Assembly (NCBI RefSeq): GCF_017812015.1
Contig: NZ_JADQTN010000001.1
Coordinates: 1 to 64,000, forward strand
Length of the DNA stretch: 64,000 bases
Direction of reading: 5' to 3'
From: Pontixanthobacter sp. CEM42
GTDB lineage: Bacteria > Pseudomonadota > Alphaproteobacteria > Sphingomonadales > Sphingomonadaceae
In this document: positions 8,984 through 29,413 of the stretch, piece by piece
Position numbering within the stretch: the stretch's first letter is position 1
Layout of the letters: each line of letters begins with the position of its first letter
The notes under the pieces: generated by a model
Database searches by the model: none
Told to the model about the DNA's origin: nothing
What the model saw: only the letters and a program-made list of their open reading frames with translations
Position numbers and translations under genes: made by a program

Positions 8984-10909
8984 TTATTGCTCGACCAACG
9001 TCAGCACGACGGCGATGCCTGGCCTAGCCGGTTCGATATCAATTTCAGCACCGATTGCAGCCGCGCGAACGCGCATATTTTTCAAACCTCTCCCGGCGCT
9101 CTGCGCTTCGCCAGAGTCCATTTCGATGCCCTTACCGTTGTCGGCCACGACAATCCGTGTTGATGCCGGATCTGAAGGTTCCGACTCGATAGTCACAGAG
9201 ATAGCATCCCCGCCCGAATGTTTGAGCGCATTGGTGAGCGCCTCTTGCAAAATACGGAAAACCTGCAGAACCTCTCGCGGACTATAGTCCGGCAAATGCA
9301 CCGTCGGTTCCTTGGTCCAGGAAACGCTGAATCCAGCCTCCTGTGCACGAGGAACAATACGCTTCTTGTAGATCGCCAATGCTGAACGAAGCGATTCTCC
9401 GACCGAATCCATAGAATCGATCATGAGACGCATTTCATCAATTACTGACTGCAAACCATCAGCGTAGTCTGAATGCTTACCATTGCCGCGCTTGGCCATC
9501 ATCATCATAGACATCAGGTGGCTACCAAGCCCATCATGCATATCGCGCATGATCCGTTGTCGTTCTTCATCCAATGCTTGCTGGCGAACCAACCGCTTCT
9601 CCCTGCCATGCGCGACTGCCAATTCGCCGGTCCGCTCGTCCAGCTGAGATTGCAGCAGCGAATTTATCTGAGAAGAGGATCGGAAGAGGGTTACCCGACG
9701 GGCAAAGAAAGCGATTGCTATGCCGATGATCAAGAACGGTGTTGTGCGATTAGTATACCCCATGTTGAGCGCCTGCGTCATTTCGGTAATCGCTTGAAGC
9801 GCCAAGAGTGAGACCAGCAGCAATGCAATTGCTGCTTCCCAATAGCGGTCTTCCTTTAAATCCCGAAAGCTCCATACAAGGCGAATGGCCGTGGCGATGG
9901 CGAAGGCGATCCCGCAATAAAAAACGATCTCTCCAGCTTGGTCATAACCCGCACCATATGGAAGAAAATACAAGCAATAGAGTGTGCCCGCCAACGCAAT
10001 GGTGCCAGCTATAGCTGCAGCAGGCAGAGACCATCGATAGTAATCACGCGACCAAGAATCTGCCCATCCGAACCAGGCGAACTGGCTGAACAAACTTATA
10101 CTGAAGAAATAGGCGATCCTAGCCTGCCCGTCGAAAGGAGGATCGGACCAGATGTAGTAATGTGACGTCGCAACGAAGGAAGTGGCCAAAACAAATAGCC
10201 ATAGTGCGCCGCCTTCCCGGCCCGAGATCAGAAAGAATATGAGCGAGAATAGGGCCACCATCGCAATCGCAGCGATGAGCAAATAGGAATAACCATTGGA
10301 AAGAAACTCAGTCCGCTCCATGTTGCTCTTGATATGGAAATACTCGCCCAAGATCGGTTTGAAATAGTCGAAATAGGGTATCCCATCACGGACCATGATA
10401 AAGGTAACCTGATTGCGTCCCCGACTGACAACATCGCTTGGGATATGATATGTCTTGCGAAATAGGCTGTCATAAGTGTGATCAGGCGATTCCATTCGCC
10501 CTGAACCGGCAACAAATGTCCCATTTACGTAAATCTGTAAGTTGTCGGCACGGACATGCCCATCAATACCGAGACCGCTTTCTGGCACCGTATCGAGGTC
10601 AAACTGGTAGCGAAACGCCCGATATCCACGCTCACAACAATGCCACGCGGGCATTTCCTCAATCGATTCAAATTTGGCTTGCTCAACAGACGCATAGGTT
10701 GGCGCTTCGAGACCAGTTTCTTCGTATGAATATCCGTCAATTGTCTCGAATTCAGGGTTTGGCGTGCCGATCACCGCAGGCTTAACCAAAATCCAAAACA
10801 CCAATTGTACGAGCAAAACAGCAAGCGAGAGCCGCGCAAGATGCGGGATCCTGTACCAGCCACTGAAGAACTTGATCTTGCTCATCGCCCCTCGAACTGC
10901 CCGAATCAT
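8984..10909 (-). CDS. 7TM-type sensor histidine kinase (HisKA_3)
   Basis: A 641-residue membrane kinase. One transmembrane helix (25-45) leads to a periplasmic beta-rich domain (60-195), which has a Cys-Cys pair at 91-92. Six to seven helices follow at about 205-405 (7TMR-DISM-like layout), then a coiled coil and a HisKA_3 dimerisation domain with His458 in RDMHDGLGSHL. The ATPase domain carries the N box LQEALTNALKHSGG, the G1 box VADNGKGIE and the G2 box GRGLKNMRVRA. AAGGG 7 bases before ATG 10909 supports that start. It is the partner of the NarL-type regulator downstream. The sensed ligand is unknown; the periplasmic domain may resemble a carbohydrate-binding jelly-roll fold. Confidence 0.92.
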   Translation of the reverse strand: MIRAVRGAMSKIKFFSGWYRIPHLARLSLAVLLVQLVFWILVKPAVIGTPNPEFETIDGYSYEETGLEAPTYASVEQAKFESIEEMPAWHCCERGYRAFRYQFDLDTVPESGLGIDGHVRADNLQIYVNGTFVAGSGRMESPDHTYDSLFRKTYHIPSDVVSRGRNQVTFIMVRDGIPYFDYFKPILGEYFHIKSNMERTEFLSNGYSYLLIAAIAMVALFSLIFFLISGREGGALWLFVLATSFVATSHYYIWSDPPFDGQARIAYFFSISLFSQFAWFGWADSWSRDYYRWSLPAAAIAGTIALAGTLYCLYFLPYGAGYDQAGEIVFYCGIAFAIATAIRLVWSFRDLKEDRYWEAAIALLLVSLLALQAITEMTQALNMGYTNRTTPFLIIGIAIAFFARRVTLFRSSSQINSLLQSQLDERTGELAVAHGREKRLVRQQALDEERQRIMRDMHDGLGSHLMSMMMMAKRGNGKHSDYADGLQSVIDEMRLMIDSMDSVGESLRSALAIYKKRIVPRAQEAGFSVSWTKEPTVHLPDYSPREVLQVFRILQEALTNALKHSGGDAISVTIESEPSDPASTRIVVADNGKGIEMDSGEAQSAGRGLKNMRVRAAAIGAEIDIEPARPGIAVVLTLVEQ

Positions 10910-14795: not shown

Positions 14796-15144
14796 TTGGC
14801 GTAGCCCCAAACCCAACTACATTAGATTCTCGAACCAAGATTGAGAGGATGTCGACGTCCGCTTCCACCCCCAAATTCCGGTCAAAAGCGTAGGTCAAGA
14901 ATTGGGCCGTAAGCGGAATGTCCGCTCTCAGCGATTGAACGTCGGCTCCGGCCTTCCGCTAAGGCCAAGTTTCCTGATAACCCGCCGTTTCGGTCGTAGT
15001 TCGGTCCGGCGTCGTATCGTCGGTTGCCCATCAGAAGTCGCTTGCGCCCTACCATCCAAATTTTTTTGAGCCGTTTTCGCTTCGCTTTGCGCCTTCTTAC
15101 TTGAGGGACCGTTTTTCACGGGCCTGCAAGCTGGAGAATGACGG
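14796..15144. other. Intergenic region with repeat copy before the giant autotransporter
   Basis: This 349-base gap holds an inverted copy of the dispersed repeat at 14857-14872 (GTCCGCTTCCACCCCC) and a related AAGCGGAATGTCCGCT at 14912-14927. A T-run at 15060-15068 has no convincing stem. No promoter match is clear enough to call; the short open frame on the minus strand (14928-15170) runs into the neighbouring gene and lacks a ribosome site. Confidence 0.4.
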
Positions 15145-18100
15145 ATGCTGGATCGTGCACTTTGGATCAAACAAACGGGGGCTTACCGGAACGCGCTGAA
15201 ACTTAGCACAGCTGCGGCGGCGCTCGGGACTGCGCTGGTGTTTGGATCAAGCGCGGCGCACGCGCAGCAGGTCGTTCCTGGCAATAGCCCAGAATGCCCT
15301 ATCGTTGTGATCGATGGCGAGCAGGTTGCTATCTGCGAAGGCGATCTTTCGGACGGCGTGACGGCATCTCCTGGCTCTCCTGATTACGATGAGATCATTA
15401 TCCGCGATACGACTGTGCCGATTGCCCCTCCGGGATATTTCGGCGTCGGATTGGTTGCCGATGATCGTGATCTCGATATCCGCATCGAGGAAGGCGTCGT
15501 CATCAATGTGTTCGACGATCCGAACATTGGCGGTGTTGCGCAGGGTATCATCGCGATTGCGCAGAATGGCTTCAATATTAACCTTGAAACGGCAGCCGAT
15601 ATCACCGCCGATGGGAATGGCTCCTTTGCGCTCGGGATTGAGGCTGTCTCTCAGGACGCGGGCGGAGAAGTCCTGGTTATCAATCGCGGCGACGTCGACG
15701 CTTTCACGACAGGCGACAGTGCGATTGCCGTACAAGCGCGTGGTGACACATTCGCCGCAGTTTCCAATCCGGGCGGCAATCTGACCGCACAATCCAATGG
15801 CACCGGCGAGCGCAGTACAGTCACGGCAGGCATTCTTGCGGTTGCCAACAATGGCACTTTCAGAATCCTGAACGATCTTGGCGATATCTCGGTCGAAACG
15901 GGTGCAGGCACATTCGATACGGATTTCAACGGAATCGCCGGAGCATTGGTCGGAAATGCGTTTAATTCCAGAGGCGGATCTTCCGTCTCGAACACCGGCA
16001 ATCTCACGGCGGTTGGTCCCCAGACACACGGCATTGTCGGCTTTGTTCAATCGATTGACGCGAGTTTGCCTGCCCAGCTCAATATCACCACTGGTAGCGC
16101 CAGCGCTGACGAAACCTCCATTTCGACCAATGGCATCGGCAGCTTCGGCATTTTGGCGCAGGGTGCTGGGGAAAATGTCATCATCGATGTCCTTAGCAAC
16201 AGCGCCATCGACATGACTGCAGTGGGCGGAACCTCGACAGGTATCTTTGCGCTCAATCAAGCCGAGGAAGGCAGCCTCACTGTCACCAACCGTGGCACAA
16301 TCACTGGCCGAGGCGACACGATGCGAGGGCTCGGCGCGACGACATTCGGCGCGCCTGTGGACGGCGACTATGTGTTCGACATCACCAATGAGGGCGACAT
16401 CACGCTCGATACCCCGAACGGCTTTGGCATCACCGCCTTCGCTACGCGCGATGATGATGTTGAGGCGGTGATCAACAATTCGGGCAATATCGACCTCAGC
16501 AGCACAACCAATCCCGGCTCCATCGGCATCAGCGCCAGCTTTGGCAACGCAGACCCCAATGCCGACCCAATGGCCGACGGTGACAGCAGCGTGGCAATCA
16601 CCAATAGCGGCGATATCACCATGGGCGCGGGCGTTGCGATCTTTGCGGCGGCGGACGACGTCATGCTGACGAACACCGGCACGATCACGGTTACACCGGA
16701 TGGTAGCGACGCGGTCTTAGTTGGCAGCACCGGAAGCGCGCAGACCGTTGATCTTGCGTTTAGCGGTGGAGACATACTTTCAGAAAGTACCATGCCAATT
16801 GTTGGTGGCTATGCTGTGCGTATCGCGGATGCAACCGAAGGATCCGATTACTCCGTGAGCCTCGACGACATGACGGTTCTTGGCTCGCTTGGGGTGGTCT
16901 CTTTTGGCGATTTGCAGGACAATACGGACATCTCGCTTACGGCAACCAATCTAATCTCGCGCGTTGCGGGCGACGGAACTCCCGCCATTCTCGTCTCGCA
17001 ATTCGGTGATCAAAGTGTGGCCGAATTCAGTTTCGACCGCGTTTCAATTGAAGACGGTGGAGGCGCATTTAATGCTAACATTGATCTCGCCGAAATTGGC
17101 GAAGGAAGCGCACTGGCCTTCAACATAAGTAATTCGGCGCTCTTTAGCGGCGGCGGAGACGATGTTGCTTCTTTGATGATTGGTGGGCTTGGAGGCGCGA
17201 ATTCGGCGTTAAACGTCAATATCCTGAATACGGGTTTCGGGTTTAGCGACGGGACATCACTGGAGATCGCCAAGTTTGCACAGGAAAGCTCTACAGCAGT
17301 CCTGACCATTGGCGGGGATTCGCTCTTCGACACCCGGCGCGATGATTCCAGCGGCATTGCGGTCGGAACCGCTGATTTGGGCCCAATCGACAACTTCTCA
17401 ACAACGATATCGATAAAGGACTCTCGGGTTTTCGCGATTGGCGAACGAACCACTGGCATCTTTGTCGACAGCAAGATGAATGGAGTCTCAAATTCGGACT
17501 TCGGCATCCTCATCAGTGGGGTCGAGATCAACACTGGCCCGCTCGCCTTAGATGGGGACGGCGAAAGCTCCCACGGAATCGAGATCATCGGGGCGCAGAA
17601 TGTCACGTTGGGTGATCGTGACAATTTCGCGGCAGGCGGGGCGTTTTCGACCGTTGTCATAGATGCGACCAAAGACATTATCGCCGCTGGCCTAAATTCC
17701 GATGCTATCCGCATAACCAATCAGGACCAAACTGCCGTCCGCGTTGCCGAGGGCGCAACCGTCTCCAGCGGCACAGGCGCTGGCGTGGCGATTAACCTGC
17801 TCGAAGCGTCCAACAATGCCGGACTGCTCGACGCGATCACCGATGAGGCGACAGTCACCAAGGCGCGGCTGGCGGACCGGGCAATGAACCTTATCACAAC
17901 CTACATCAACAGCTCTGGCACGCAGACCACGTCAGCGGTTGGTGGCGGTCAGGCGGGTGCCGATCCGTTCGCTGTCGACGCGTTCGATTTCACGCCTTTC
18001 AACCAATTGATGGAAATCGACAACGCGACCGTGGAATCCGTGAACGGGGCCGGCGCGATTGTCAGCGCTTCGCCGCTAGCGCTTGGCACCTCCAATGGAG

Positions 18101-21100
18101 CTATTGTGCGCACAGGCAGCGATGGTGCAGCGGTGATTTCAGCAGGCGAAGCCATCGCGCTGGTCGGCAGCGACACGAGCTTCAGCAGCATGGGCAACAA
18201 TGCCCCGCTATTCAGCGTGACCGAAGTGAACGCAGGCGATGGCACCGGGTTCTATGCCGATTTGACCGATATCATCGCGATGACCAGCGGCACGGGCAGT
18301 GATGCGATTGCGATGGGTGGCGGTGTCGCGAACAGCGTCGGCGTGCTGTTCTTGCGCGCAACCGATCTCGCCAATCCGAGCGTCGTTTCAACCACCGGCG
18401 ACGGATCGAGCGCGGTCAGCTTCGATGCTCCAGGCGCCTCGACATTCGCGGGCGCGATCAGCCGCAGCGAGATTTCGACCACAGGTGCGGCTGCGGCGGC
18501 GATCCTGCTGAATATGGACAGTACCAGCTCAACAAGTCTGGAGCTGCTCGACACGTTGGTCAGTACCACAGGCAATGGTAGCGATGTGGTGCGGCTAAAC
18601 GTGGGTGGCACCAGCGACTACACTTTCATCGTCGCTGACTCCGAATTGACCAGCGAAGGCGATGACAGCGTGCTTTTCCGCATAAACGGACGAGACGACA
18701 CCATGGTTGGTACTGTTGTGATGATCGGAGGCACGCTGGCTAGCCAGGGTGACAGTTCAGGAGGGATTCTGATCGAGAATGATCAGGCCACCGGTCAATC
18801 GGCAAACACCTTCTTCTTCGGCGAGAGCAGCATCACAACCGAGGGCGACAACGCTGGCGGCTTCGTCTTCGAACGGATTGCAGGCAGCGCAGACGGAGGC
18901 GGATTTAGTCTCGGGTCATTTACGCTGGACGCCGTTGCTATTGCGACAGGCGGCGCGAACAGCGATGCTTTTTTCGGCGGTTCGCTGCTGAGTGGCAGCG
19001 TCATAACTACAAATATTACGAACAGCAGTTTTGCGACGGGCGGAGATAACAGCCGCGCCTATTTCGCCGAAGCGCTGGGTGGCGGAAACGCAACTTCGCT
19101 GGTGATCTCTTCGAGTGATTTCAGCACCGAGGGCGCAAACAGCACGGCGGTCACCTTTAACGAAGGCAGCGTTTTCAGCGACATCGGTCCGGCGGCATCA
19201 TCGGTTTCCGCCTTCGATATCGATGGGAGCACGATCAGTACGCTAGGCGACAACAGCCGTGGGATCGATGTTGCGACGCTGGCTGGCGATCGTTCGACGA
19301 CCGTCATTTCGATGAGCGAGAACACGGTCACAACAGCTGGCGCGAATAGCGATGCCATCAGCATCGGAACGCAGGCAGCTATTGGCCGCGATGGCGCATC
19401 GCACACGGTTTCGATGGATTTCCTGACCCTGGAAACAGCAGGCGATGACAGTCGCGGTATCTATTTCGGTTCGCTTGTGAACGGCCTTATCGGTGTCGAT
19501 GCGTTCAATGGCGGTGTGACCGATGCAACGATCTTTACTGCTGACAATGTGATTGCGACCTCTGGCGCGCGTTCGCACGGGATGGAATATGCCACCATTG
19601 CCGGCGATCTCGAGGACGGTATCGTCGACATCGTGGCCGGCAACAGCACAATCCAAACGCGGGGCGATAATGCTATCGGGATGTTGTTTGGCGGTGTTGA
19701 GGGCAGTTTTATCGACAATGATGCGACCGCAGGGCGCCCTCAGCTCAGCATCACTTGGGCGCCGCTCTCGCTCGGCACCGAAGGTACTGGATCGCACGGT
19801 ATTCAGATCGGCGATCTGCCCGCTTTCGATGTCGCGGATAACGCCTCTATCACTCTCACACTGCTCACCCGCAGCATCACCACCACAGGCGATGGCGCAC
19901 ACGGAATTGTGATCGGCAGCGGCTGGGGCGATGCGGACTCAGATACCAACTTTCTTGATCCGGGCTCGAACCGTTTCACCTCCGTGTCTGTCGATGGCGC
20001 GATCGACGTTTCTGGCGCTGGATCTCACGGCATTGTTTCGGACAGCCTGATAAACGATTTCAGCATTGCCGAAACCGGCAGCATCACATCCGCTGATGGC
20101 TTTGCGATGAACTTCGCGGAAGTCGATGACGGGCAAACCGCCGTCAACCTTGGCGAGATCGACGGCGATGTGATCTTTGGCGGCGGCGACGACGTGTTCG
20201 ATAGCTCCGGCACTTTCACCGGCAATATCGACATGGGCGCTGGCGCGAACAGTATCTTCATCCGCACAGGAGGTCTGTTCAACTCGCTGGACACAATCCT
20301 GCTCGGCGCGGGCAATGCGATCACTATAGAGGGCGATCTGGCACCGGGCGAGGTCGGGCCGTTCCAAACCACCGCAATCGGCAGTGACCTGTTCTTCGAG
20401 TCGGATTCACGCTTCCTGATCGATATCGACGGGATGACTGCCGATATGGGCGCACCGGGCTTCTTCGTCTCTGACCGAGTGACGGTTGATGGCAATATCA
20501 CGATTGACGATGCGACTTTGGTGATCTCTTCGCTGACCGCTGAAGGCGATTTCGACCGTTCGGCGCAGTTCCTGATCCTCGATGCGGCAGGCACGCTGAC
20601 CGGCGAATTCGGCACTATTGATGCAGACTTGCCGTTCCTTGATCTGTCCGTGACCTATGAAGGCAGCCGCGCGATCCTCAATGCCGGGCGCCAAGGCCCG
20701 GTCGTACCGTTCGCCTCGCTTGGCCTCACGCCGAACCAGCGTGCTGTTGGCGCAAGTTTTGACGCGTTGGAGATGACCGCGACGGGTGATCTGGACGATG
20801 TGATCGAGCAACTGATTTTCGCCAGCATCGATCAGGCATTGACCGCTTTCGACACGGCTTCCGGCGAAATCTACGCCTCGCTACTCGCACAGGCTGGGAA
20901 TGACGGTCTGCGCCGCTCGCGCGAAACGCTTGCACGCGCTCGCAGCGCCGCCAATAGCGGCTGGGGCATCTGGGGCGGGCTCGCTGTCTCCGATGGTTCA
21001 ACCGATGGCGACGGTAACGGTGCGGCGGTAAGTCAGGACGATTTCGGGTTCGACTTCGGAATTGACTATGTCGGAGAGGATAACACATGGGCTGCCGGCC

Positions 21101-21786
21101 TTTCGACCGGCTGGCGCGATGGCAATCTGGATGTACCGGACCGGCTTAGCATGGCGGAATATAGCACGTGGTACCTAGCAGGCCACGCCCGTTACGGCAG
21201 CGGAGGGCAGGGTGTTACCGTCACCGCAGGCTTCGATTTCGCTGAAACCGATGCGGACGTGATCCGCACTCTGACTGTCAATGCGCTCACCCGCACTGTG
21301 CTAGGCAATGCTGATATCGACACGTTCTCGCTCGCAGGGGAAGCGCGCTATGGCGTTGCGGTGAGCGATGATTGGGCTGTCGGTCCAATTGCGTCGGTAA
21401 TTCACGCAAATAGCGATCTTGCTTTGGACAACGAGACCAATGCAGGCAGCGTGGCTTTGACTTCTGCGCAAGCTTCCGATGGACAGACGCGTTTCGGTGC
21501 CGGCCTGTTTGCCAATTTCCAAAGCGATAAAGCAGTGTTCGACCTGTCTGGCCAGTATGTTGAAGCCTCTTCAAACTCGGTCGGTGCAAGGCTTGCTTTT
21601 GCCGATGGCGGAAATGCACCTTTCACCGTCCTCGCCCCCGTGACTGACGGATCGGGTGTGCTGACATCCGCATCCGCGCAGATTGATCTTGGGTCTGGAC
21701 TAACGCTGGGTGCACAGGCTGATGCGCTGTTCGGCGGCGATGTTGAGGAAGTGAATGGTTCGGTAGTCCTAGGCTGGCGCTTCTGA
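15145..21786 (+). CDS. Giant autotransporter with repetitive beta-helix passenger
   Basis: A 2213-residue protein. The signal peptide is long (cleavage near residue 40, AAHAQ|Q), with a charged head resembling an extended signal. The passenger (41 to ~1930) is Asp/Asn/Gly/Thr-rich. Early turns carry NxGDI(T/D)-like motifs (NTGNLTA, NRGDVDAF, NSGDITMG). Later turns, about 1080-1635, repeat a (I/L)xTxG(D/A)(N/G)Sx(G/A)(I/F) motif at least fifteen times. From ~1935 an autotransporter barrel starts (GWGIWGGLAVSDG) and ends VVLGWRF with terminal Phe. Expected location is the outer membrane with the passenger outside. It heads a same-strand cluster with a 58-aa protein, an ECF sigma factor and a Ser/Thr kinase, which probably control it. 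Confidence 0.9.
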   Translation: MLDRALWIKQTGAYRNALKLSTAAAALGTALVFGSSAAHAQQVVPGNSPECPIVVIDGEQVAICEGDLSDGVTASPGSPDYDEIIIRDTTVPIAPPGYFGVGLVADDRDLDIRIEEGVVINVFDDPNIGGVAQGIIAIAQNGFNINLETAADITADGNGSFALGIEAVSQDAGGEVLVINRGDVDAFTTGDSAIAVQARGDTFAAVSNPGGNLTAQSNGTGERSTVTAGILAVANNGTFRILNDLGDISVETGAGTFDTDFNGIAGALVGNAFNSRGGSSVSNTGNLTAVGPQTHGIVGFVQSIDASLPAQLNITTGSASADETSISTNGIGSFGILAQGAGENVIIDVLSNSAIDMTAVGGTSTGIFALNQAEEGSLTVTNRGTITGRGDTMRGLGATTFGAPVDGDYVFDITNEGDITLDTPNGFGITAFATRDDDVEAVINNSGNIDLSSTTNPGSIGISASFGNADPNADPMADGDSSVAITNSGDITMGAGVAIFAAADDVMLTNTGTITVTPDGSDAVLVGSTGSAQTVDLAFSGGDILSESTMPIVGGYAVRIADATEGSDYSVSLDDMTVLGSLGVVSFGDLQDNTDISLTATNLISRVAGDGTPAILVSQFGDQSVAEFSFDRVSIEDGGGAFNANIDLAEIGEGSALAFNISNSALFSGGGDDVASLMIGGLGGANSALNVNILNTGFGFSDGTSLEIAKFAQESSTAVLTIGGDSLFDTRRDDSSGIAVGTADLGPIDNFSTTISIKDSRVFAIGERTTGIFVDSKMNGVSNSDFGILISGVEINTGPLALDGDGESSHGIEIIGAQNVTLGDRDNFAAGGAFSTVVIDATKDIIAAGLNSDAIRITNQDQTAVRVAEGATVSSGTGAGVAINLLEASNNAGLLDAITDEATVTKARLADRAMNLITTYINSSGTQTTSAVGGGQAGADPFAVDAFDFTPFNQLMEIDNATVESVNGAGAIVSASPLALGTSNGAIVRTGSDGAAVISAGEAIALVGSDTSFSSMGNNAPLFSVTEVNAGDGTGFYADLTDIIAMTSGTGSDAIAMGGGVANSVGVLFLRATDLANPSVVSTTGDGSSAVSFDAPGASTFAGAISRSEISTTGAAAAAILLNMDSTSSTSLELLDTLVSTTGNGSDVVRLNVGGTSDYTFIVADSELTSEGDDSVLFRINGRDDTMVGTVVMIGGTLASQGDSSGGILIENDQATGQSANTFFFGESSITTEGDNAGGFVFERIAGSADGGGFSLGSFTLDAVAIATGGANSDAFFGGSLLSGSVITTNITNSSFATGGDNSRAYFAEALGGGNATSLVISSSDFSTEGANSTAVTFNEGSVFSDIGPAASSVSAFDIDGSTISTLGDNSRGIDVATLAGDRSTTVISMSENTVTTAGANSDAISIGTQAAIGRDGASHTVSMDFLTLETAGDDSRGIYFGSLVNGLIGVDAFNGGVTDATIFTADNVIATSGARSHGMEYATIAGDLEDGIVDIVAGNSTIQTRGDNAIGMLFGGVEGSFIDNDATAGRPQLSITWAPLSLGTEGTGSHGIQIGDLPAFDVADNASITLTLLTRSITTTGDGAHGIVIGSGWGDADSDTNFLDPGSNRFTSVSVDGAIDVSGAGSHGIVSDSLINDFSIAETGSITSADGFAMNFAEVDDGQTAVNLGEIDGDVIFGGGDDVFDSSGTFTGNIDMGAGANSIFIRTGGLFNSLDTILLGAGNAITIEGDLAPGEVGPFQTTAIGSDLFFESDSRFLIDIDGMTADMGAPGFFVSDRVTVDGNITIDDATLVISSLTAEGDFDRSAQFLILDAAGTLTGEFGTIDADLPFLDLSVTYEGSRAILNAGRQGPVVPFASLGLTPNQRAVGASFDALEMTATGDLDDVIEQLIFASIDQALTAFDTASGEIYASLLAQAGNDGLRRSRETLARARSAANSGWGIWGGLAVSDGSTDGDGNGAAVSQDDFGFDFGIDYVGEDNTWAAGLSTGWRDGNLDVPDRLSMAEYSTWYLAGHARYGSGGQGVTVTAGFDFAETDADVIRTLTVNALTRTVLGNADIDTFSLAGEARYGVAVSDDWAVGPIASVIHANSDLALDNETNAGSVALTSAQASDGQTRFGAGLFANFQSDKAVFDLSGQYVEASSNSVGARLAFADGGNAPFTVLAPVTDGSGVLTSASAQIDLGSGLTLGAQADALFGGDVEEVNGSVVLGWRF

Positions 21787-21814
21787 AGTCGCGGCATTCC
21801 ATACGGAGCGCTAG

Positions 21815-21991
21815 ATGAAAGACCCTCTGAAACCGTACGCCGAACGCGAGGTGCTACAAATTCTCGAGGAAGCATTGGAGCAACCTGAAGCCGACCGTGC
21901 ACGTTGGCTCACGCAGAAGCTAAAGGAACGTGAGCTGATCGGGCAACGGGTCGAGGATTTGCTCAGCTTTGCCGAGCAGAAGTTGCTTTAG
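21815..21991 (+). CDS. Stand-alone kinase-N-terminus-like protein, 58 aa
   Basis: The frame starts MKDPLKPYAEREVL and ends FAEQKLL, with GGAG 7 bases upstream. It is all-helical and charged. The pattern EREVLQILEEALEQPEADRA matches the first 30 residues of the kinase at 22611 (EREALAVVEDALDHPPAERG), including the later LL-x-x-A/F region. So this is a free copy of the segment that precedes the kinase domain. It lies 28 bases after the autotransporter and just before the sigma factor gene. It might bind the sigma factor or compete with the kinase for it. Function is inferred only from similarity and position. Confidence 0.75.
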   Translation: MKDPLKPYAEREVLQILEEALEQPEADRARWLTQKLKERELIGQRVEDLLSFAEQKLL

Positions 21992-22015
21992 GCATTTCCA
22001 ACTCTTTCGTCGTGC

Positions 22016-22609
22016 TTGGAGAAACAACCAGGCTGTGGCTATTCTGTGGGCAGCAATCGATTCGGGGGGCATTTGGATTACAGCGCGCTCATGGCTGAAT
22101 GGCAGTCCGGCAATGCCACTGCCGGGGATTCAGTAATTCGTGATATTCATCGCGAATTGGTAGCCATTGCCGCTGCCAAATTGTCGCAGGAATCGCGCTC
22201 TTCACTGTCCACGGGTGATCTGATTAACGAAGCGATGATCAGGCTGTCCCGCCTCAAGCAGATGGAATTCAACAGCCGCGCACACATACTGGCGCTTGCA
22301 TCGCGCATTATGCGGCAAATCCTGGTTGACCAAGCCCGCCGCCGCAATGCTGACAAACGCTATCACACGCAAGTCACGTTGCAGACCAATATTGCCGAAT
22401 GGCAGATGCCGGTCGAATTGCTTGCGCTGGATATGCATCTAGAGGAGCTGCGAGCAATCGATCCGCAGCGTGCCGATATTGTCGAAATGCGGTTCTTTGG
22501 TGGAATGTCGCTAACCGATATCTCGACCGTGCTGGATATCTCTGTGGCTACGGTAAAACGGCGCTGGCAGGCCTCGCGTATTTGGCTGCATGACAGGCTA
22601 AGCAACTGA
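22016..22609 (+). CDS. ECF sigma factor, kinase-linked type
   Basis: Up to 197 residues. Sigma region 2 is at about 30-115 (TGDLINEAMIRL, SRAHILALASRIMRQILVDQ, ARRRNADKR) and region 4 at 135-195 (LEELRAIDPQRADIVEMRFF, GMSLTDISTVLDISVATVKR). This pattern is that of the ECF group found beside Ser/Thr kinases. In region 2.2 the usual acidic DAED is replaced by Ser65-Thr66-Gly-Asp (numbering from 22016). The first in-frame codon is TTG 22016, but no good ribosome site precedes it; GTG 22046 or TTG 22073 (after GGGGGG) are alternatives, so the start is uncertain. The kinase gene begins one base after its stop, indicating coupled translation. Confidence 0.88.
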   Translation: MEKQPGCGYSVGSNRFGGHLDYSALMAEWQSGNATAGDSVIRDIHRELVAIAAAKLSQESRSSLSTGDLINEAMIRLSRLKQMEFNSRAHILALASRIMRQILVDQARRRNADKRYHTQVTLQTNIAEWQMPVELLALDMHLEELRAIDPQRADIVEMRFFGGMSLTDISTVLDISVATVKRRWQASRIWLHDRLSN

Positions 22610-22610
22610 C

Positions 22611-24950
22611 ATGGATCGGCCTGATCCTGATATTGAACGCGAGGCATTGGCGGTGGTAGAGGACGCATTGGACCACCCGCCCGCCGAACGCGGCGACTAT
22701 GTGCGTCAACACCAAACACTAAGCGCTTCTGTAAAAGAACGCGCTATCCAACTATTGGCTAAAGAATCTTCAGGCGTTGGCGGTTTGATGACCGGTGGTG
22801 CTGGGCAGTGCGAGGACGAGGATGACGACCCCGATCGTATTGGCGGTTACCGTGTGCTGCGCCTGATAGGCCGGGGCGGTATGGGCAATGTCTATCTCGC
22901 CGAACGTGCAACGGACGATTTCGATCTTGTCGTTGCGATAAAGCTGATCAAACGGCGATTGATTACCGACGAGATGCTTGAGCGTTTCCGGCGCGAACGA
23001 CAGATATTGGCCGATCTCAACCATCCCAACATCGCGCGGCTTTTTGATGGCGGTGAGACCGAGGATGGTGTCCCCTACTTCGTGATGGAGTTTGTCGACG
23101 GAGCACCGCTTGATGGCTGGCTCAAATATACGAGCCCGTCTCTAGAAGACAGATTATCGGTATTTGAGCGCATTTGCAGGGCAGTTGAAGCGGCGCATCA
23201 GCGCTTGGTAATTCACCGCGATTTGACTCCGCCCAATATCCTTATTGCTGATGGCAGGACCGTAAAATTGATCGACTTCGGTATTGCGCGGCCGGACGAT
23301 GGCGTTGAAATTTCATCGACGGGATCGGCGTGGACTCCGGGTTTCGCAGCTCCCGAGCAGAAGGATGGTGGAGAAGCGACAACTCTGTCCGATGTTTACG
23401 GGTTAGGTAAGCTCCTCAGCCTGCTGATCGGCGAGGACGCTCCTGATGAGTTGACTGCCATCGCGCAAAAGGCCGCCTCGAACGACGTCCAGGCGCGCTA
23501 TTCTTCTGTTTCGGCGCTGGTCGAAGATATGCGAAACTACAAAGACTTGCGTCCAATATCGGCGGTCGCGGCTGGTCCGACTTATGTCGCACGGAAGTTT
23601 GTTCAACGACAACGGTTGGCCACAGCGGCGGCCACGGTAGTGGTCACTGCGACTCTCGCAACGCTAGTCTTCGTAACGCAAGCCTATCGGCAGACCGAGC
23701 TCGCACGCGCCGACGCCGAGGCAAATCTGGCGGATACACGCGCGCTCGCTGGCACAATGATGTTTGATGTCTTTGACGAAGTTAGCAATCGGCCCGGCAA
23801 TTCGCAGGCCCGATTGATGCTGGCCAAAAATGCACAAAGCCATCTCGAAGCACTGGCTGCCGATCCCGATGCATCATATGAGTCACGCCTAGCCGCAGGC
23901 CAGGGCTTCTATCGGCTTGCGGCCGCAACCGGTACGCTTGGAACCAGCAATCTCGGCGAAATGACCGAGGGCTTAGCGCTGTATGAGCAATCCGCAGAGA
24001 TACTAGAAGGCCTTTATCGTGAGCAACCAGTTGATCAAGTAAGGCTCTCTCTGGCGCGCACCCATGTCAGTCTCGCGAGGGACAAGCTGCTCGGTTACAT
24101 TGAATTCAAAGAGTCGCGGGCGCATGCCCAACGTGCACGCTCGCTATTAGAAGAGATCGAAACGCCCTCTTCAGAAGCGCTCGCGGAACTTGCACGCGCT
24201 TATCGCTATCTGGGTGACGTGCTGGCTTGCTGCTTGGGCCAAATCGAACAGGGGTATGAGGCCGCTTTAGAAGGTGTTGCCAAGGTCGAAGCCGCGACGA
24301 TAGCGCAACGGAACGCCCCGGCTGTCCGCAGGGCACTCAATGACCTGCGTAATATCGGTGCCGGGTTCGCCATCGTTTTCGACGGGGATGCCGCGGCGAT
24401 TACCCCCTTCAGGGATGTGCTTCGCGCTCAGCGCGAATTGGCGAATGAAACAAATCTACCCGAAGATCACCGGCTTGAAGCGACCATTGCAATGAATCTG
24501 GCTCGAACGCTCCTCAGGATGGGAAGGTCGAGAGAGGCGGAAGAGGTAATTGTGCCAACATATCGGCATGCTGTTTCAGCCTATCGAACCGATCCTGACG
24601 ATAACGATCTCCAACGCCGTTTGGCCGCGATCAGTATCGCGAGGGGGCAAACGATCGCTCATAGTGGTCGGCGCGAACAAGCGGAGGCATATATCGAGGA
24701 AGGCCTGAGGTTGGTGCGAGCAAGCGAACAAATTACAAGCCCGCGTACCCGGCCATCACTCTACTTCGCGAATCGCCTGCAGGAAGCCTCGGAAGCCTAC
24801 TGGGCAAACGACCAAATTGGTGAGGCATGCGCGTTGATAGACCAGTCCATTGCCCTCCTCCGCCGATATGCCGATCAATACGAGCTGCCAATGACCTCGC
24901 TGCGCTATCGTGTCGCGCCGATGGAAGATCGGCTCAGGAACTGTAACTGA
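22611..24950 (+). CDS. Membrane Ser/Thr protein kinase with helical repeat domain
   Basis: A 779-residue protein. Residues 1-55 are a helical N-terminus like the 58-aa neighbour. The kinase domain (about 78-330) has the glycine loop LIGRGGMGNVYLAE, VAIK Lys111, HRDLTPPN (Asp204 catalytic), DFG at 222-224 and the FAAPEQ activation-segment end. The usual Lys of HRDLKPxN is Thr206, an unusual change. A single transmembrane helix lies at ~335-357, followed by a ~420-residue periplasmic-side region of helical repeats of TPR type (ALYEQSAEILEGLYREQP, EAYIEEGLRLVRASE). Such kinases sense through the repeat region and phosphorylate the partner sigma factor. It is translationally coupled to the ECF gene. 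Confidence 0.9.
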   Translation: MDRPDPDIEREALAVVEDALDHPPAERGDYVRQHQTLSASVKERAIQLLAKESSGVGGLMTGGAGQCEDEDDDPDRIGGYRVLRLIGRGGMGNVYLAERATDDFDLVVAIKLIKRRLITDEMLERFRRERQILADLNHPNIARLFDGGETEDGVPYFVMEFVDGAPLDGWLKYTSPSLEDRLSVFERICRAVEAAHQRLVIHRDLTPPNILIADGRTVKLIDFGIARPDDGVEISSTGSAWTPGFAAPEQKDGGEATTLSDVYGLGKLLSLLIGEDAPDELTAIAQKAASNDVQARYSSVSALVEDMRNYKDLRPISAVAAGPTYVARKFVQRQRLATAAATVVVTATLATLVFVTQAYRQTELARADAEANLADTRALAGTMMFDVFDEVSNRPGNSQARLMLAKNAQSHLEALAADPDASYESRLAAGQGFYRLAAATGTLGTSNLGEMTEGLALYEQSAEILEGLYREQPVDQVRLSLARTHVSLARDKLLGYIEFKESRAHAQRARSLLEEIETPSSEALAELARAYRYLGDVLACCLGQIEQGYEAALEGVAKVEAATIAQRNAPAVRRALNDLRNIGAGFAIVFDGDAAAITPFRDVLRAQRELANETNLPEDHRLEATIAMNLARTLLRMGRSREAEEVIVPTYRHAVSAYRTDPDDNDLQRRLAAISIARGQTIAHSGRREQAEAYIEEGLRLVRASEQITSPRTRPSLYFANRLQEASEAYWANDQIGEACALIDQSIALLRRYADQYELPMTSLRYRVAPMEDRLRNCN

Positions 24951-24960
24951 AATGTTCAAA

Positions 24961-24980
24961 CGGCTGCTTCTCAGCAGCCG
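24961..24980 (+). terminator. Hairpin after the kinase gene
   Basis: CGGCTGCT and AGCAGCCG pair perfectly over 8 bp around TCTC, 10 bases after the kinase stop. The following ATTTGAAGACTTT is only weakly T-rich, so termination efficiency is uncertain. The rest of the gap to 25112 is without recognisable genes. Confidence 0.6.
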
Positions 24981-25112
24981 ATTTGAAGACTTTAACGTCC
25001 AATATTGGGGCGCAAAGCAGACACCAGTGGAAAGGCACGTCCTAGTTTCGACCGCAGTTTAATGGGTGCTGCTTTGGCATGGGAAATATACCGTTCGAAC
25101 AGGAGCGATTAT

Positions 25113-26051
25113 TCACCTAGAAGCTCTAAGAAGCTCCCGGATCGCAGATTGCCAGCCAGGTAGATGTGGTAAGCGATGAACCTTGGGGTCGCGGCGCTTG
25201 ATAAGTTCTGTCCTTCTAAGCTTGGTCAATTCTTCCCAGTTCTCTTCGAACAGATACATGGCATTACCGTATTCCAAATTCTCCAAGACCAGCAATTTAT
25301 CGCCGAATCTAGCTCCAAAATATCGAGCAAACTTTCCGTGGCCGACGATGAAGCCGTTGTGACTGAGCCTTTCTAATACTCGGAGCCTCTCGGAAGCTAC
25401 TTCGAGCTGCTCTGCTGTCGTCGCCTTACTTTCCGCTAGTTGGGCTATAACGCGGTCGGCGGAACCGGGTGGGATTAACTCCCAGTCCACGCTTTGCAGG
25501 TTGGCGAATTCTTCGTCGCTCATATCCGCACAGTAAACTTGAGACCGGCCAACAATTTCACGCAACAGTCGTAGATTGAACTGAAGGTTCTCTGCAAAGT
25601 CGACGTCTGTTCGATCTAGCGGTTGGTCGATCCGGAAACGGACGATCGCTCCATCTTTAAGCGGCTCAAGAATTGTGGCTGAAAGCGTAAGCATGCGTGC
25701 AGGATGATGATCGACTTGCCATGCTTCAACGGAGCGGGTGACGAGATGATGCCCGCTTCCATTCCAGTTTGGTGCCCAAGATGAGACATCACGCATCTCT
25801 TTGGGAAGGTCTTTTCGCTTCTCTTGCCAACCATCCAGATTGCGCTTCGCCCAAATTCCACATGCATGCGGCGGCGGAGCTGGCTCGGCTACTGCGAGCT
25901 TTCCGGAGTCTAATGTTAGCCCAGCTAGCTCGTATTTGGCAGCCTGGTCCTTTGTAATGGTTAGCACGGCGGCCACGACAATGCGGGTTCCATCGATGCG
26001 TTCCAGATCGCGCTGAATTGCTTTCGAAAGCTGTGCTCTTTTACGTGTCAT
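25113..26051 (-). CDS. Unknown protein, third gene of the methyltransferase operon
   Basis: A soluble 312-residue protein with no signal peptide or membrane helix. The N-terminus is basic (MTRKRAQLSKAIQRDLERID). The middle contains GHHLVTRSVEAW and VDHHPARML and a beta-rich section, then a helical Glu-rich segment (about 210-235). The C-terminus has FIVGHGKFARYFGARFGDK, ENLEYGNAMYLFEENWEEL and a basic tail with HRLPHLPGW. No family is recognised with confidence; the conserved-looking aromatic and His residues of the C-terminal part could be a recognition or catalytic module. Its start overlaps the stop of the DUF5681 gene by 4 bases (ATGA), so it is co-translated with it. Confidence 0.65.
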   Translation of the reverse strand: MTRKRAQLSKAIQRDLERIDGTRIVVAAVLTITKDQAAKYELAGLTLDSGKLAVAEPAPPPHACGIWAKRNLDGWQEKRKDLPKEMRDVSSWAPNWNGSGHHLVTRSVEAWQVDHHPARMLTLSATILEPLKDGAIVRFRIDQPLDRTDVDFAENLQFNLRLLREIVGRSQVYCADMSDEEFANLQSVDWELIPPGSADRVIAQLAESKATTAEQLEVASERLRVLERLSHNGFIVGHGKFARYFGARFGDKLLVLENLEYGNAMYLFEENWEELTKLRRTELIKRRDPKVHRLPHLPGWQSAIRELLRASR

Positions 26052-26827
26052 TTGTCTGCCTTTTCGCAGGGGGTAACGAGAATGCTGGGGTCAAATCTGT
26101 CATCTAACGGGCGGCGGTACCTGATAGGCAGTGGCTCATTGAGCTCATCATACCAATCGGTTGTGCGTTTCCAGTCTTCTGCCAGCGTTGAAGCAATTGG
26201 AATTGGAGGCTTAGCCCCCTTCAGACGTTTGTATCCGCTAGCCAGCAACGATACTTCGGCTTGCAATTCCGCGCGGTATTCGAGCATTCGATCCCAACGA
26301 GCTTTCTCTTCGTGAGTGATCGGTCCCGCATAAGTGACCGTCGCGCTAGCAAGATTAACTATGACGTCAGCCGGGTGGGGAAGGGGTGTGGGCTCAGGTC
26401 GGCCGTTCTTGCGGGCGTCTTCTATTGCTCGCTCCCAGCCAAATTTATACTCGCAGGCGGTATCAAACAGGCTCGTTCTTACGGCTCGCTCCTCCTCTTC
26501 GATCTCTCGAACGAGTTCAGCCATCGTAGCCTGAGCGAGACGATTGCCCTTCATAGCCGAAACGCCAAGCGAACGAAAAACTGCTTTGATTACGGGTAGC
26601 TCAACAAGTTCTTCGCCTTCCCGCACGGTAATCGTCCGGTAGGCTTCTTCGAGCAGCATCTGGTTGGCGGGTTGCGCAGAGGCATCTAGGCCAAAGCCGC
26701 GAGGTATCCTATTGCGTGCTCCCTTCGGACGGCCATTCGGGTTACCCGAGCTCCCTTTCTTGAATCTGGTTTTAGTCGGCGGCTTGCCATAACCGACAGA
26801 ATACTGGTCCTTCACATCGCTCATCAA
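26048..26827 (-). CDS. DUF5681-domain protein
   Basis: 259 residues. The N-terminus has the DUF5681 hallmark: YGKPPTKTRFKKGSSGNPNG followed by RPKGARNR, a basic Gly/Pro-rich segment (residues ~13-42) likely to contact nucleic acid. The rest is helical and charged, with EEAYRTITVREGEELVELP, a Glu run (EIEEEERA) and a conserved-looking DWKRTTDWYDEL near the C-terminus. The family is common in phage-like and mobile regions of alphaproteobacteria, but its role is not known. It sits between the ParB-methyltransferase gene and the 312-aa gene, overlapping each by 4 bases. Confidence 0.8.
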   Translation of the reverse strand: MMSDVKDQYSVGYGKPPTKTRFKKGSSGNPNGRPKGARNRIPRGFGLDASAQPANQMLLEEAYRTITVREGEELVELPVIKAVFRSLGVSAMKGNRLAQATMAELVREIEEEERAVRTSLFDTACEYKFGWERAIEDARKNGRPEPTPLPHPADVIVNLASATVTYAGPITHEEKARWDRMLEYRAELQAEVSLLASGYKRLKGAKPPIPIASTLAEDWKRTTDWYDELNEPLPIRYRRPLDDRFDPSILVTPCEKADK

Positions 26828-28152
26828 GCGGCTGCCTCACCCAGTTCGATCTGTAAGCGTTGATCGGCAACGTCAGTAAATTTGTCATCAGAGCCGGTAA
26901 GCAATGCGTGCTTGCCGGTGTATCCTTGCCAACGGCGAATAATCGTGTCGCAGTAAAGCGGGTCGTATTCAATCATGCGGGCACGGCGGCCCGTTTTCTC
27001 AGCTGCGATGAGCGTGCTGCCGGAGCCGCCAAAGCCATCGAGCACAATCTCTCCACGCCGAGAGCAGTCGCGGATCGCGTCGGCGATCAGCGCTACAGGC
27101 TTTACAGTTGGATGCATTGCCAGATCTTCGGATCGGTTTGCGCCGATCAAACTGATCCCCGCGTAGTCCCAGACATTGGTTCGGTAGCGGCCAGTCTCGC
27201 CAAGGCCGAAGCTGTTAGTATGCGGCGCGGTCCCTTGCTTGAACACAAATACGAGCTCGTGTTTGGAGCGGTAAAACGCACCCATGCCGCCATTGGTTTT
27301 GTTCCAGACGACAAGGTTTTTGAGTTCGGTGAAACTAGCTTCTCCGGCCTCGACCATTTCAGACATATGGCGCCAGTCCATACAGACATAGGCAATGGCA
27401 CCGTCGCGCATTACCCGTGCAATGTTACCGAGAGTATCGTTTAGGAATGTTACGAATTGGGGGCGGCTCATTTCGCCACTGGCAAATGCAAACTCACGGT
27501 GCTTGACCGAGCCAAGTCCGCAGACATTGCCGTCGATGGCGACGTTGTAGGGCGGATCGGTGAACACTAGATCCGCCTTCTCGTCACCCATAAGCAGATC
27601 CAAGGTGGCCGCATTACGAGTGTCCCCGCACAGTAAGCGGTGGCGTCCAAGTTGCCAGAGATCTCCCATGCGCGCGACAGGCTCGCCGGACGGCTCCGGA
27701 ATTTCATCCTCGGCGGCATCCGTACCATCGGGACTGGCCTCGCTGGCCTCATCAAGCGTGAAGTCGATTTCGGCCAGACTGAACCCGGTGATCTCCAAAT
27801 CGAAATCTAAGTCTATCAATCCCTGAAACTCAATTGCGAGGATATCGCGGTCCCAGCCAGCATTTAGAGCAAGCTTGTTGTCAGCGAGCACATAAGCGCG
27901 GCGTTCGACTTCGCTTAGGTGGGACAGCGCCAACGTTGGCACTGTTTTCATGCCGATCAGTTTTGCCGCTTCGACCCGGCCATGACCTGCGATAATTCCA
28001 CCGGAGTCAGAAACGAGAACAGGATTGGTAAACCCAAACCGCTCAATTGACGACGCGATCTGTTTGATCTGCTTCTTTGAATGGGTCCGCGCGTTTCGCG
28101 AACAGGGTTTGAGAGCAGTGACTTCCTGCTCGACCAGTTGTTGTGAAGACAT
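26824..28152 (-). CDS. ParB-domain DNA methyltransferase (DPPY type)
   Basis: 442 residues from ATG 28152, preferred over 28212 because GGGGCG precedes it and the longer frame runs into the promoter region. Residues 1-105 are a ParB/sulfiredoxin-like domain (NARTHSKKQIKQIASSIERF, IIAGHGRVEAAK, ADNKLALNAGWD). The catalytic domain has DPPY at about 199-202 (VFTDPPYNV) and, later, the AdoMet motif LDGFGGSGST near 365. The order DPPY before FxGxG is that of beta-class amino methyltransferases, so N6-adenine or N4-cytosine methylation is expected. No restriction enzyme lies nearby. Such ParB-methyltransferases are typical of phages and integrative elements. It leads a three-gene overlapping operon. 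Confidence 0.88.
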   Translation of the reverse strand: MSSQQLVEQEVTALKPCSRNARTHSKKQIKQIASSIERFGFTNPVLVSDSGGIIAGHGRVEAAKLIGMKTVPTLALSHLSEVERRAYVLADNKLALNAGWDRDILAIEFQGLIDLDFDLEITGFSLAEIDFTLDEASEASPDGTDAAEDEIPEPSGEPVARMGDLWQLGRHRLLCGDTRNAATLDLLMGDEKADLVFTDPPYNVAIDGNVCGLGSVKHREFAFASGEMSRPQFVTFLNDTLGNIARVMRDGAIAYVCMDWRHMSEMVEAGEASFTELKNLVVWNKTNGGMGAFYRSKHELVFVFKQGTAPHTNSFGLGETGRYRTNVWDYAGISLIGANRSEDLAMHPTVKPVALIADAIRDCSRRGEIVLDGFGGSGSTLIAAEKTGRRARMIEYDPLYCDTIIRRWQGYTGKHALLTGSDDKFTDVADQRLQIELGEAAA

Positions 28153-28199
28153 GTTGCGCCCCGTATCATTGACCGAAGTCGTATAACTAGAGTGAACGC

Positions 28200-28227
28200 T
28201 TGCAAAAATCAACCCAACCTATATGAT
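28200..28227 (+). promoter_or_regulatory. Promoter of the XRE-ImmA pair
   Basis: TTGCAA (28200-28205), 16-base spacer, then TATGAT (28222-28227), a reasonable sigma-70 match. AGTGAACG occurs at 28191-28198 and again at 28241-28248, one on each side of the promoter, 50 bases apart. These are candidate half-sites for the XRE repressor, which would also shut the divergent methyltransferase operon. Confidence 0.5.
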
Positions 28228-28256
28228 GGCGTAATTCCACAGTGAACGGACCTATC

Positions 28257-28589
28257 ATGAGCTTTGCAAAACGCCTCGCCCAATTGCGAATGGCAAAGGG
28301 CCTGTCCCTCCAGCAAGTTGCTGACAAAGTCGGCATTTCGAAAGCGCACGTTTGGAATCTAGAAAAAGGCCAGGCTGACAATCCATCGATGGAGCTGGTT
28401 CTTAAATTTGCTGAGTTGTTCCGCGTCCCTATTGCCGATCTCGTCGGCGAAAACCCGGATGCCGAAGATCATGAGCCGGAGATGGTTGCCATGTTCCGTG
28501 ATCTGAAAAAGCTTGAGCCGCGTGACCGTGATATTATTCGCGGATTGATGGAGCAACTCAATCAGAAGAGTAAGAAGGACCCAGATTGA
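28257..28589 (+). CDS. XRE-family transcriptional regulator
   Basis: A 110-residue repressor-like protein. A Cro/CI-type helix-turn-helix occupies residues ~3-60 (FAKRLAQLRMAKGLSLQQVA, VGISKAHVWNLEKGQADNPS). The C-terminal part is helical and charged, with LEPRDRDIIRGLMEQLNQ. ATG 28257 is used because the earlier GTG at 28242 has no ribosome site and lies close to the expected transcription start. It overlaps the following ImmA-like gene by 4 bases. XRE plus ImmA pairs control mobile elements: the protease cleaves the repressor after a signal. Here it probably controls the divergent methyltransferase operon. Confidence 0.88.
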   Translation: MSFAKRLAQLRMAKGLSLQQVADKVGISKAHVWNLEKGQADNPSMELVLKFAELFRVPIADLVGENPDAEDHEPEMVAMFRDLKKLEPRDRDIIRGLMEQLNQKSKKDPD

Positions 28590-29413
28590 CGATAAGTCGC
28601 CTCGATCTTGACTGCATTGGATCGCCCAATGCCTTGGCGGCCAGAATTCACGAGCTGGTTCTAGATATGCCTGATGTGGTTCCGCTCGAAAGGCTGTGCA
28701 ACAGGTTCGACATCGAAGCGATCACTGAAATTGATACGGGCGGCTTTGAAGCAGCGCTTATCATGGACGAGCTGAAGGCTAGTGGCAGTATCGTACTAGC
28801 CAAAGGCCGGCGTCCGGAACGGCGCAGGTTTTCAATTGCACACGAGCTTGGTCATTTTCTCATACCTAGTCACCGGCCGCATCCCGATCACCCGTTTGAA
28901 TGCTCGCTTAGCGATTTCCATCTTTTAGATGCGAAGGATCAAAACCGGCGGCGGCGTATCGAGGCTGAAGCGAACCGATTTGCGGCGAAATTGCTTATGC
29001 CGCCAAGCCGTGTGCGAAAAGTGATTGGCCAGTCTGGTTCATCACTTGAAAGCCTAGTTTCGACTGCGAAGGACCTTGGTGTGAGCAAAGAAGCTATGGC
29101 TCGGGCATGGGTTGATGCGCACCGTGAACCGGTTGCTGTGGTGATTTCGCGCAATAGCGAAGTCCAGCGCTTTTACAGAAGTGAAGATTTTCCTTGGATC
29201 AACGTCCGCAAAGGTCAGTCCCTTCCTAGCGGGTCGATAGCGGAGGAGCACAACGAAGCGCCGGGCGTCTATTCAGCCATTGAGGAAATAGAACCGGATA
29301 TCTGGTTCGATGAACGTAACGCTTCACAGGTTCTCGTATTGAGTGAGCAGGTTTTCGGTCAGCAGAACGGTTACGCAATGACCTTGCTCCAGGCAGAGTT
29401 AGACGAGGACTGA
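28586..29413 (+). CDS. ImmA/IrrE-type zinc metallopeptidase
   Basis: A 275-residue cytoplasmic protein. The zinc motif HELGH is at residues 86-90 (RRRFSIAHELGHFL), and the distal Glu lies in IEAEANRFAAKLLMP at about 130-140, as in ImmA/IrrE proteins. The C-terminal ~100 residues form a second domain with VAVVISRNSEVQRFYRS and VLVLSEQVFG. The start is TTG 28586, overlapping the TGA of the XRE gene, with AAGGA upstream; this arrangement implies coupled expression. It should cleave the partner XRE regulator to derepress it. No inducing signal is visible. Confidence 0.88.
   Translation: MTISRLDLDCIGSPNALAARIHELVLDMPDVVPLERLCNRFDIEAITEIDTGGFEAALIMDELKASGSIVLAKGRRPERRRFSIAHELGHFLIPSHRPHPDHPFECSLSDFHLLDAKDQNRRRRIEAEANRFAAKLLMPPSRVRKVIGQSGSSLESLVSTAKDLGVSKEAMARAWVDAHREPVAVVISRNSEVQRFYRSEDFPWINVRKGQSLPSGSIAEEHNEAPGVYSAIEEIEPDIWFDERNASQVLVLSEQVFGQQNGYAMTLLQAELDED

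Follow-up and report, generated by a model that had tools for sequence, protein, structure and literature searches.

We analyzed a 64,000-nucleotide stretch of DNA from Pontixanthobacter sp. CEM42 (hereafter, the window; the source genome is 3.08 Mb in two contigs) and describe here a cassette of four intact open reading frames (ORFs) that encode, in order on the + strand, a giant autotransporter, a 58-residue protein that we call S58, an extracytoplasmic function (ECF) sigma factor and a Hanks-type membrane kinase. We estimate at roughly three in four the probability that this cassette is a dedicated signal-to-surface circuit, in which the kinase acts on the sigma factor and the sigma factor on the gene for the giant surface protein. 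The features are as follows (PWM, position weight matrix; HMM, hidden Markov model; pN and pS, proportions of nonsynonymous and synonymous differences).

15067-15095, +: predicted sigma promoter, TGAGCC-GTTTT...TGCGCCTT, by PWM, 78 nt 5' of the autotransporter ATG
15145-21786, +: giant type Va autotransporter, 2213 aa (ORF, profile match, AlphaFold model)
20959-21783, +: predicted C-terminal translocator barrel, about aa 1939-2213, with a helix before it (EstA match; AlphaFold strands, 440-713 of the fragment)
21815-21991, +: S58, 58 aa, a separate protein homologous to the N-terminal segment of the kinase (HMM, pN/pS, orthologues)
22073-22609, +: ECF sigma factor, TIGR02999, 178 aa, with STGD in region 2.2 (T47, D49) and linker VTLQT (T102, T105)
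22611-24950, +: Hanks-type membrane kinase, 779 aa (PF00069, E 2.4e-34)
22611-22760, +: N-terminal module of the kinase, aa 1-50, three helices, with homology to S58 and the PknS N-terminal segment
22848-23570, +: kinase catalytic domain, about aa 80-320 (PF00069 spans aa 80-280; HRDLTPPN)
23619-23675, +: predicted transmembrane helix, aa 337-355 (hydropathy maximum)
23688-24947, +: predicted periplasmic all-helical TPR-like domain, aa 360-779 (AlphaFold helices)

In the circuit that we propose, the kinase would sense an envelope or contact signal via its periplasmic helical-repeat domain and would phosphorylate the sigma factor encoded just upstream, probably at linker T102/T105, perhaps at T47, rather than at the canonical ECF43 threonine of region 2.2. 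The active sigma factor would bind TGANCC..TT...CGCC before the autotransporter gene and transcribe an operon of autotransporter, S58, sigma factor and kinase, which would create a positive loop; the output would be a giant adhesin-like protein displayed on the surface. S58 would most likely tune the loop, either as the kinase's competitor for the sigma factor or as a bridge between the two.

The gene layout agrees with a preliminary description of this DNA, which had grouped four same-strand genes here and placed sigma factor and kinase one base apart: a single base separates the sigma stop (22609) from the kinase start (22611). Its sigma gene is present with that stop, and only the start has to be moved, since the mechanical ORF begins at 22016 and the TTG at 22073 is the most likely start, given that close relatives begin MDH or LDH there and that GGGGGG lies just 5'. 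The assignment to the ECF sigma factors is confirmed by a TIGR02999 score of 159 bits (cut-off 126), and this is the sole TIGR02999 sigma factor above cut-off in the source genome; the best named matches, among those listed, are from Sphingomonadales, including Parasphingopyxis, an uncultured Erythrobacter, Sphingopyxis, Aurantiacibacter and Novosphingobium. No ORF for an anti-sigma factor was recognized in the cassette by Pfam, NCBIfam or ORF reading.

The autotransporter label was likewise upheld. Pfam and NCBIfam gave no family for the 2213-aa protein at E ≤ 1. When its final 714 residues were combined with six relatives into a profile, this matched EstA, an autotransporter esterase (PDB 3kvn, E 1.2e-7), and the last part of an extracellular serine protease chain (8e7f, E 2.6e-12). 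The AlphaFold model of the C-terminal fragment (mean pLDDT 67.5) shows a beta passenger, then a helix (409-434), then a run of strands, twelve of them long and two short; of the 28 ten-residue blocks that make up the barrel, 20 reach a pLDDT of at least 79. By our reading of the sequence there is a signal peptide at about aa 1-41, and the passenger is acidic, rich in G, S and T, and beta, with a mature pI of about 4.05. Signal peptide, beta passenger, and helix plus 12-strand C-terminal barrel in a single chain, the marks of type Va, are thus all found here, the barrel model with moderate confidence, and the protein is a classical autotransporter as far as the profile match and the model topology can tell. 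It shares with the EstA-type proteins the C-terminal barrel and the helix before it, and differs from them in a very large, repetitive passenger without Pfam match and in its apparently dedicated regulation by a phospho-sigma factor.

Linkage of the pair to giant proteins and a shared upstream element

We searched 397 genomes of the family (G numbers) with the sigma factor as query (E ≤ 1e-25), obtained 44 places in 40 genomes, and examined 43 of them, the contig of G032 being too short for this. In 10 of the 43 (G000, which is the window, G004, G313, G427, G275, G209, G100, G251, G378 and G327) the sigma/kinase pair has the autotransporter next to it, with one further, weak case (G247); the G004 orthologue is 68% identical. 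From a wider sigma search we took the best 80 of 174 matched loci (L numbers; L097-L161, mostly from Acidobacteria, Planctomycetes and Balneolaceae, were screened by BLAST alone), and BLAST found the autotransporter in six of these 80 (L082, L083, L084, L085, L091, L096), of which L082 is the G313 locus, hence five further loci. Within the Sphingomonadales the pair lies within 2 kb of an autotransporter at 15 loci, window included, and the conserved synteny on which the preliminary description had staked its proposal is therefore present. Placement varies: some autotransporters precede the pair on its own strand, that of L166 lies downstream, and those of L163, L172, L178, L191, L192 and L096 are divergent; the gap to the sigma ORF at L172 is about 1.6 kb, and at L085 two sigma/kinase pairs stand on either side of one autotransporter. 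Across the 397 genomes, the autotransporter occurs in 18 (E ≤ 1e-10), the sigma factor in 40 and both in 13 (Fisher p 9e-11, a value that ignores kinship and assumes that both counts come from the same 397 genomes).

A promoter had been suggested before 15145, and a promoter-like element common to non-orthologous loci was found there. It belongs to a conserved block in the upstream DNA of the closest orthologues, precedes the autotransporter also at loci with other orders or orientations, and has the consensus TGANCC..TT...CGC(C) with a fixed spacing of 20 nt from TGA to CGC. With a PWM of 24 sites at non-orthologous loci, close orthologues excluded (some sites had been chosen by earlier scans, so that the matrix is not fully blind), the window site scores 30.7 bits and the next best site in the 64 kb, both strands, 11.0; the highest score in 300 random 64-kb sequences from a first-order Markov model was 25.2. 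In a leave-one-out test over 11 autotransporter loci the site ranked top in eight; in two it came second, outscored by a different site within that locus, and in one (L178) it was missed. Close orthologues make up five of the 11 (window, L031, L082, L083, L084), which flatters their scores. An 11-site scan of 45 loci outside the training set gave a best site of at least 12 bits in 19 and none such in 26. Ten of these 19 sites precede an autotransporter (L172, L198 and L091, the ORF being interrupted in L091), an adaptor-TolC-sigma-kinase operon (L087-L090), a LamG giant (L165) or a third type of giant protein (L086, L169), and at L087, L088, L164 (the same as L089) and L090 a weaker second site (11.7-20.3 bits) precedes the giant itself.

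The element also occurs away from the pair. In G007 (27.9 bits) and G313 (32.5 bits) it lies directly 5' of an autotransporter on another contig than the sigma gene, at least about 75 kb from it by the distances to the contig ends, a placement compatible with control in trans. Autotransporter pieces with the element stand on separate contigs in G427 (24.5 bits), where the piece may be the 5' half of the gene beside its sigma factor, and in G342 (15.9 bits); this survey leaves aside a back-half piece on contig 99 of G378 and the second of two tandem copies in G251. In the source genome the full longer pattern occurs exactly at two places, the second of which (C1:1871055) overlaps one ORF start and lies 195 bases before another. 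The short pattern has 19 exact matches vs 9 for a backward control, and the longer pattern with up to two mismatches 103 vs 79; on these numbers we do not claim a wider regulon. We also observed GAGG or TGAGG about 10-14 bases past the CGC (about 15103-15107 in the window), conserved at many loci and perhaps the transcript start.

Several observations weigh against the proposed circuit. Nine loci have a site of at least 12 bits away from such genes (L168, L037, L093, L035, L185, L176, L167, L181, L187), and scores of 12-16 bits are close to the chance maximum. G331 carries an autotransporter piece with the element (22.5 bits) and no sigma factor at E ≤ 1e-25. Seven autotransporter homologues are without a good element (G208, G118, two in G015, G429, G398, G325), although G015 and G429 carry the sigma factor; in one of the G015 copies a variant of low score (2.8 bits) lies 31 bases 5' of the ORF. 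As many as 28 of the 43 family sigma places lack, in the stretch retrieved, any of the giant proteins searched for, some of the stretches ending at contig ends, so that the pair can also occur without such a target. Finally, a second promoter 5' of the sigma gene was not found in the window, so that transcription of the sigma gene would depend on read-through. The terminator scan gave no terminator-like site on the + strand of 21786-24950, and neither it (3 matches vs 9.5 in shuffles) nor a standard sigma-70 promoter scan (4 vs 5.0) showed any excess over 14800-25300; one weak terminator-like match lies at 15092-15107, immediately past the element.

The proposed sigma factor switch, the kinase and S58

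ECF43 factors have a conserved Thr at the third position equivalent to the DAED motif of region 2.2 in 88% of cases (PMC13147305), and this Thr is phosphorylated in EcfP (STTA, the second Thr; PMC8999054, PMC8103513) and in EcfK (QATE; PMC13147305). The window sigma gene, like those of ECF43, lies beside a Hanks kinase gene without an anti-sigma gene. Its phospho-threonine column is Gly (STGD), with Thr one residue before and Asp after, and on this motif we rejected a copy of the EcfP switch; the parallel with EcfP/PknT that had been drawn for this cassette fails in this respect. In an alignment of 53 sigma factors (window included, EcfK itself not among them), STGD is the largest motif type (18), and QPTE or QATE in four marks the phospho column. 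In the linker, one column holds T in 30 sequences and E in 21, and a column three residues further is T in 43. Such a T/E exchange is compatible with a phospho-site or its mimic. Given this exchange, the precedent of EcfK T106, reported as a phospho-site or mimic position, and the activity that EcfK T51A retains (PMC13147305), we tentatively place the switch at T102/T105, moved from region 2.2.

It is improbable, but deserves to be weighed, that the sigma factor controls the autotransporter while the kinase acts mainly on other substrates, sigma activity being set by amount through autoregulation, since the negative charge in region 2.2 is already provided by D49. STGD retains the last acidic residue of DAED, a few relatives carry APGD, SPGD or EPED with no Thr in the motif, and L090 retains the sigma factor and both elements with no kinase domain in its 20.5 kb (tblastn with the window kinase, best E 1.4), a loss that deletion or faulty assembly may explain. 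Against these stand the kinase ORF that adjoins the sigma gene in 41 of the 43 family places (a contig end truncates one of the two exceptions), the T or E in the linker of 51 of the 53 aligned sigma factors, and the published direct phosphorylation of EcfK by PknS (PMC13147305), all of which favor control of the sigma factor by its neighboring kinase.

The kinase carries the Hanks motifs GRGGMG, VAIK, HRDLTPPN, DFG and APE as read in the sequence, with Thr in place of the usual Lys of HRDxK in 13 of 13 aligned kinases, across which Cys740 and Cys778 are also invariant. The membrane kinase with a helical-repeat sensor that had been described is supported by the PF00069 match, the hydropathy helix and an AlphaFold model that predicts an all-helical periplasmic domain (mean pLDDT 78.5; of the 24 ten-residue blocks in aa 461-700, 20 exceed 90); a match to PF13424 falls slightly under its cut-off. 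A profile of the 13 kinases has as its top PDB match 9EED (E 9.6e-69), which is PknS of Xanthomonas citri (PMC13147305), and the match takes in the PknS N-terminal segment, which is conserved among Xanthomonadaceae homologues and possibly functional (PMC13147305).

S58 has no match in Pfam or NCBIfam. A profile of 51 distinct kinase N-termini matches it at E 1.2e-9 among the ORFs searched, bearing out the proposed homology, and also matches its counterparts in G004 (E 3.5e-9), L082 (2.2e-9) and L083 (1.7e-5). Its pN/pS is 0.23, 0.33 and 0.40 against three orthologues and 0.23-0.41 across six pairs, a rough ratio because synonymous sites are near saturation, and by this comparison of orthologues S58 is under purifying selection. 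The same values, with the profile match, disfavor a chance or junk ORF. The name 'adaptor', which the preliminary description gives to this protein, gained no support from the analysis. That S58 is a functionless, decaying remnant of a duplicated kinase gene seems to us unlikely. The S58-like stretch of L084 shifts reading frame midway, several loci lack S58, and the two pairs around one autotransporter at L085 indicate that pairs can duplicate; on the other side are the pN/pS values, the lower pN of S58 between window and G004 (0.17 vs 0.25 for the kinase N-terminus, S58 being the more conserved) and a GGAG six bases 5' of its ATG. The part in the circuit that we assign to S58 is also weakened by its distribution: it is seen in a single sub-clade only, no S58-like stretch lies between autotransporter and sigma gene in L085 or L091 (three forward frames), and none was recognized in L162. 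Separately, L090 (a Novosphingobium metagenome-assembled genome) encodes at 10530-10718 a 62-aa kinase N-terminus after a sigma gene whose motif is SIGD.

A last alternative, that these genes are neighbors by chance on a small shared island and the element belongs to another regulator, seems to us very improbable. A phage-like block does lie directly downstream in the window, but the linkage persists in varied orders and orientations and the element occurs before unlinked autotransporters and at loci with a different giant protein. This block (25113-29413, directly 3' of the kinase) comprises a 312-aa ORF without Pfam match, a DUF5681 protein and a ParB-N plus N6/N4 DNA methylase protein, continues on the opposite strand with a helix-turn-helix regulator and an M78 (ImmA-like) peptidase, and looks phage-type or mobile.

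Other giant proteins and relation to known systems

The same pair also stands beside other giant proteins. A LamG giant with adaptor and TolC accompanies it in two of the 43 family places (G377, G180), and a third type of giant in two more (G349, G176); among the best 80 of the 174 loci the LamG giant was found in three further ones (L087, L088, L090), L089 being the G377 locus. At L087 (7342-20501), L089 (= L164), L165, L088 and L090, giant, HlyD-like adaptor and TolC are arranged around the pair, and domain searches on L087 and L090 gave LamG and PPC domains and a LEPR-XLL start. The third type, at L086 (3784-10328) and L169 (850-7389), is a protein of 1291-1529 aa without Pfam match, with the element upstream and flanked, by our reading, by a 300-317-aa protein and a barrel-like partner. 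At L037 (3054-12318; G007, same genus) the element is followed by a protein that we read as zinc-ribbon-like, a second kinase, sigma factor and kinase, and the G007 autotransporter is on another contig than this operon-like run. In a FastTree sigma tree (topology only, without support values) members of the window clade carry all three payloads, one member (L168) carries none, and autotransporters are present in other clades too. The dedicated control of a giant surface protein proposed in the preliminary description thus keeps its linkage and its candidate promoter, but the scheme is wider than proposed, taking in other giant proteins and unlinked autotransporters. A more far-reaching version, that the Sphingomonadales possess one phospho-sigma plug-in controller for interchangeable giant surface proteins, with the switch moved to the linker and S58 as a released, sigma-docking feedback competitor, and hence a new type of ECF regulator, we consider doubtful.

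Kinase-activated ECF sigma factors are already known; this cassette differs in its predicted target, in its separate N-terminal module and in its apparently altered switch. EcfK/PknS of X. citri (ECF43; PMC13147305) likewise links an ECF sigma factor to a Hanks kinase with an N-terminal extension, one membrane helix and a periplasmic TPR region, and EcfK, too, is acidic in fourth place of the region 2.2 motif. It differs in having Thr51 where the sigma factor here has Gly and in its target, a type VI secretion system rather than a predicted giant autotransporter, and a free copy of the N-terminal segment, such as S58, is unmentioned in the part of that paper available. EcfP/PknT of Vibrio parahaemolyticus (ECF43; PMC8999054, PMC8103513) has in common with the cassette a neighboring kinase as activator of the sigma factor and no anti-sigma factor, and its regulon is a polymyxin response, in contrast to the one giant surface protein predicted here. 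A literature search, many subscription papers being outside its scope, found no publication joining 'ECF43' and 'autotransporter', and broader searches brought up nothing closer among the entries listed.

The kinase-activated ECF factors of the cited papers thus control type VI secretion or polymyxin resistance, whereas here a single giant surface protein is the predicted target. Since the promoter can be read from the sequence, signal, kinase, sigma factor and output should be testable with one reporter. The stand-alone S58 copy offers a handle on the role of the unexplained N-terminal segment in PknS-type kinases, and the natural variants (linker Thr vs Glu, STGD vs QPTE) may be used to ask where phosphate activates sigma factors.

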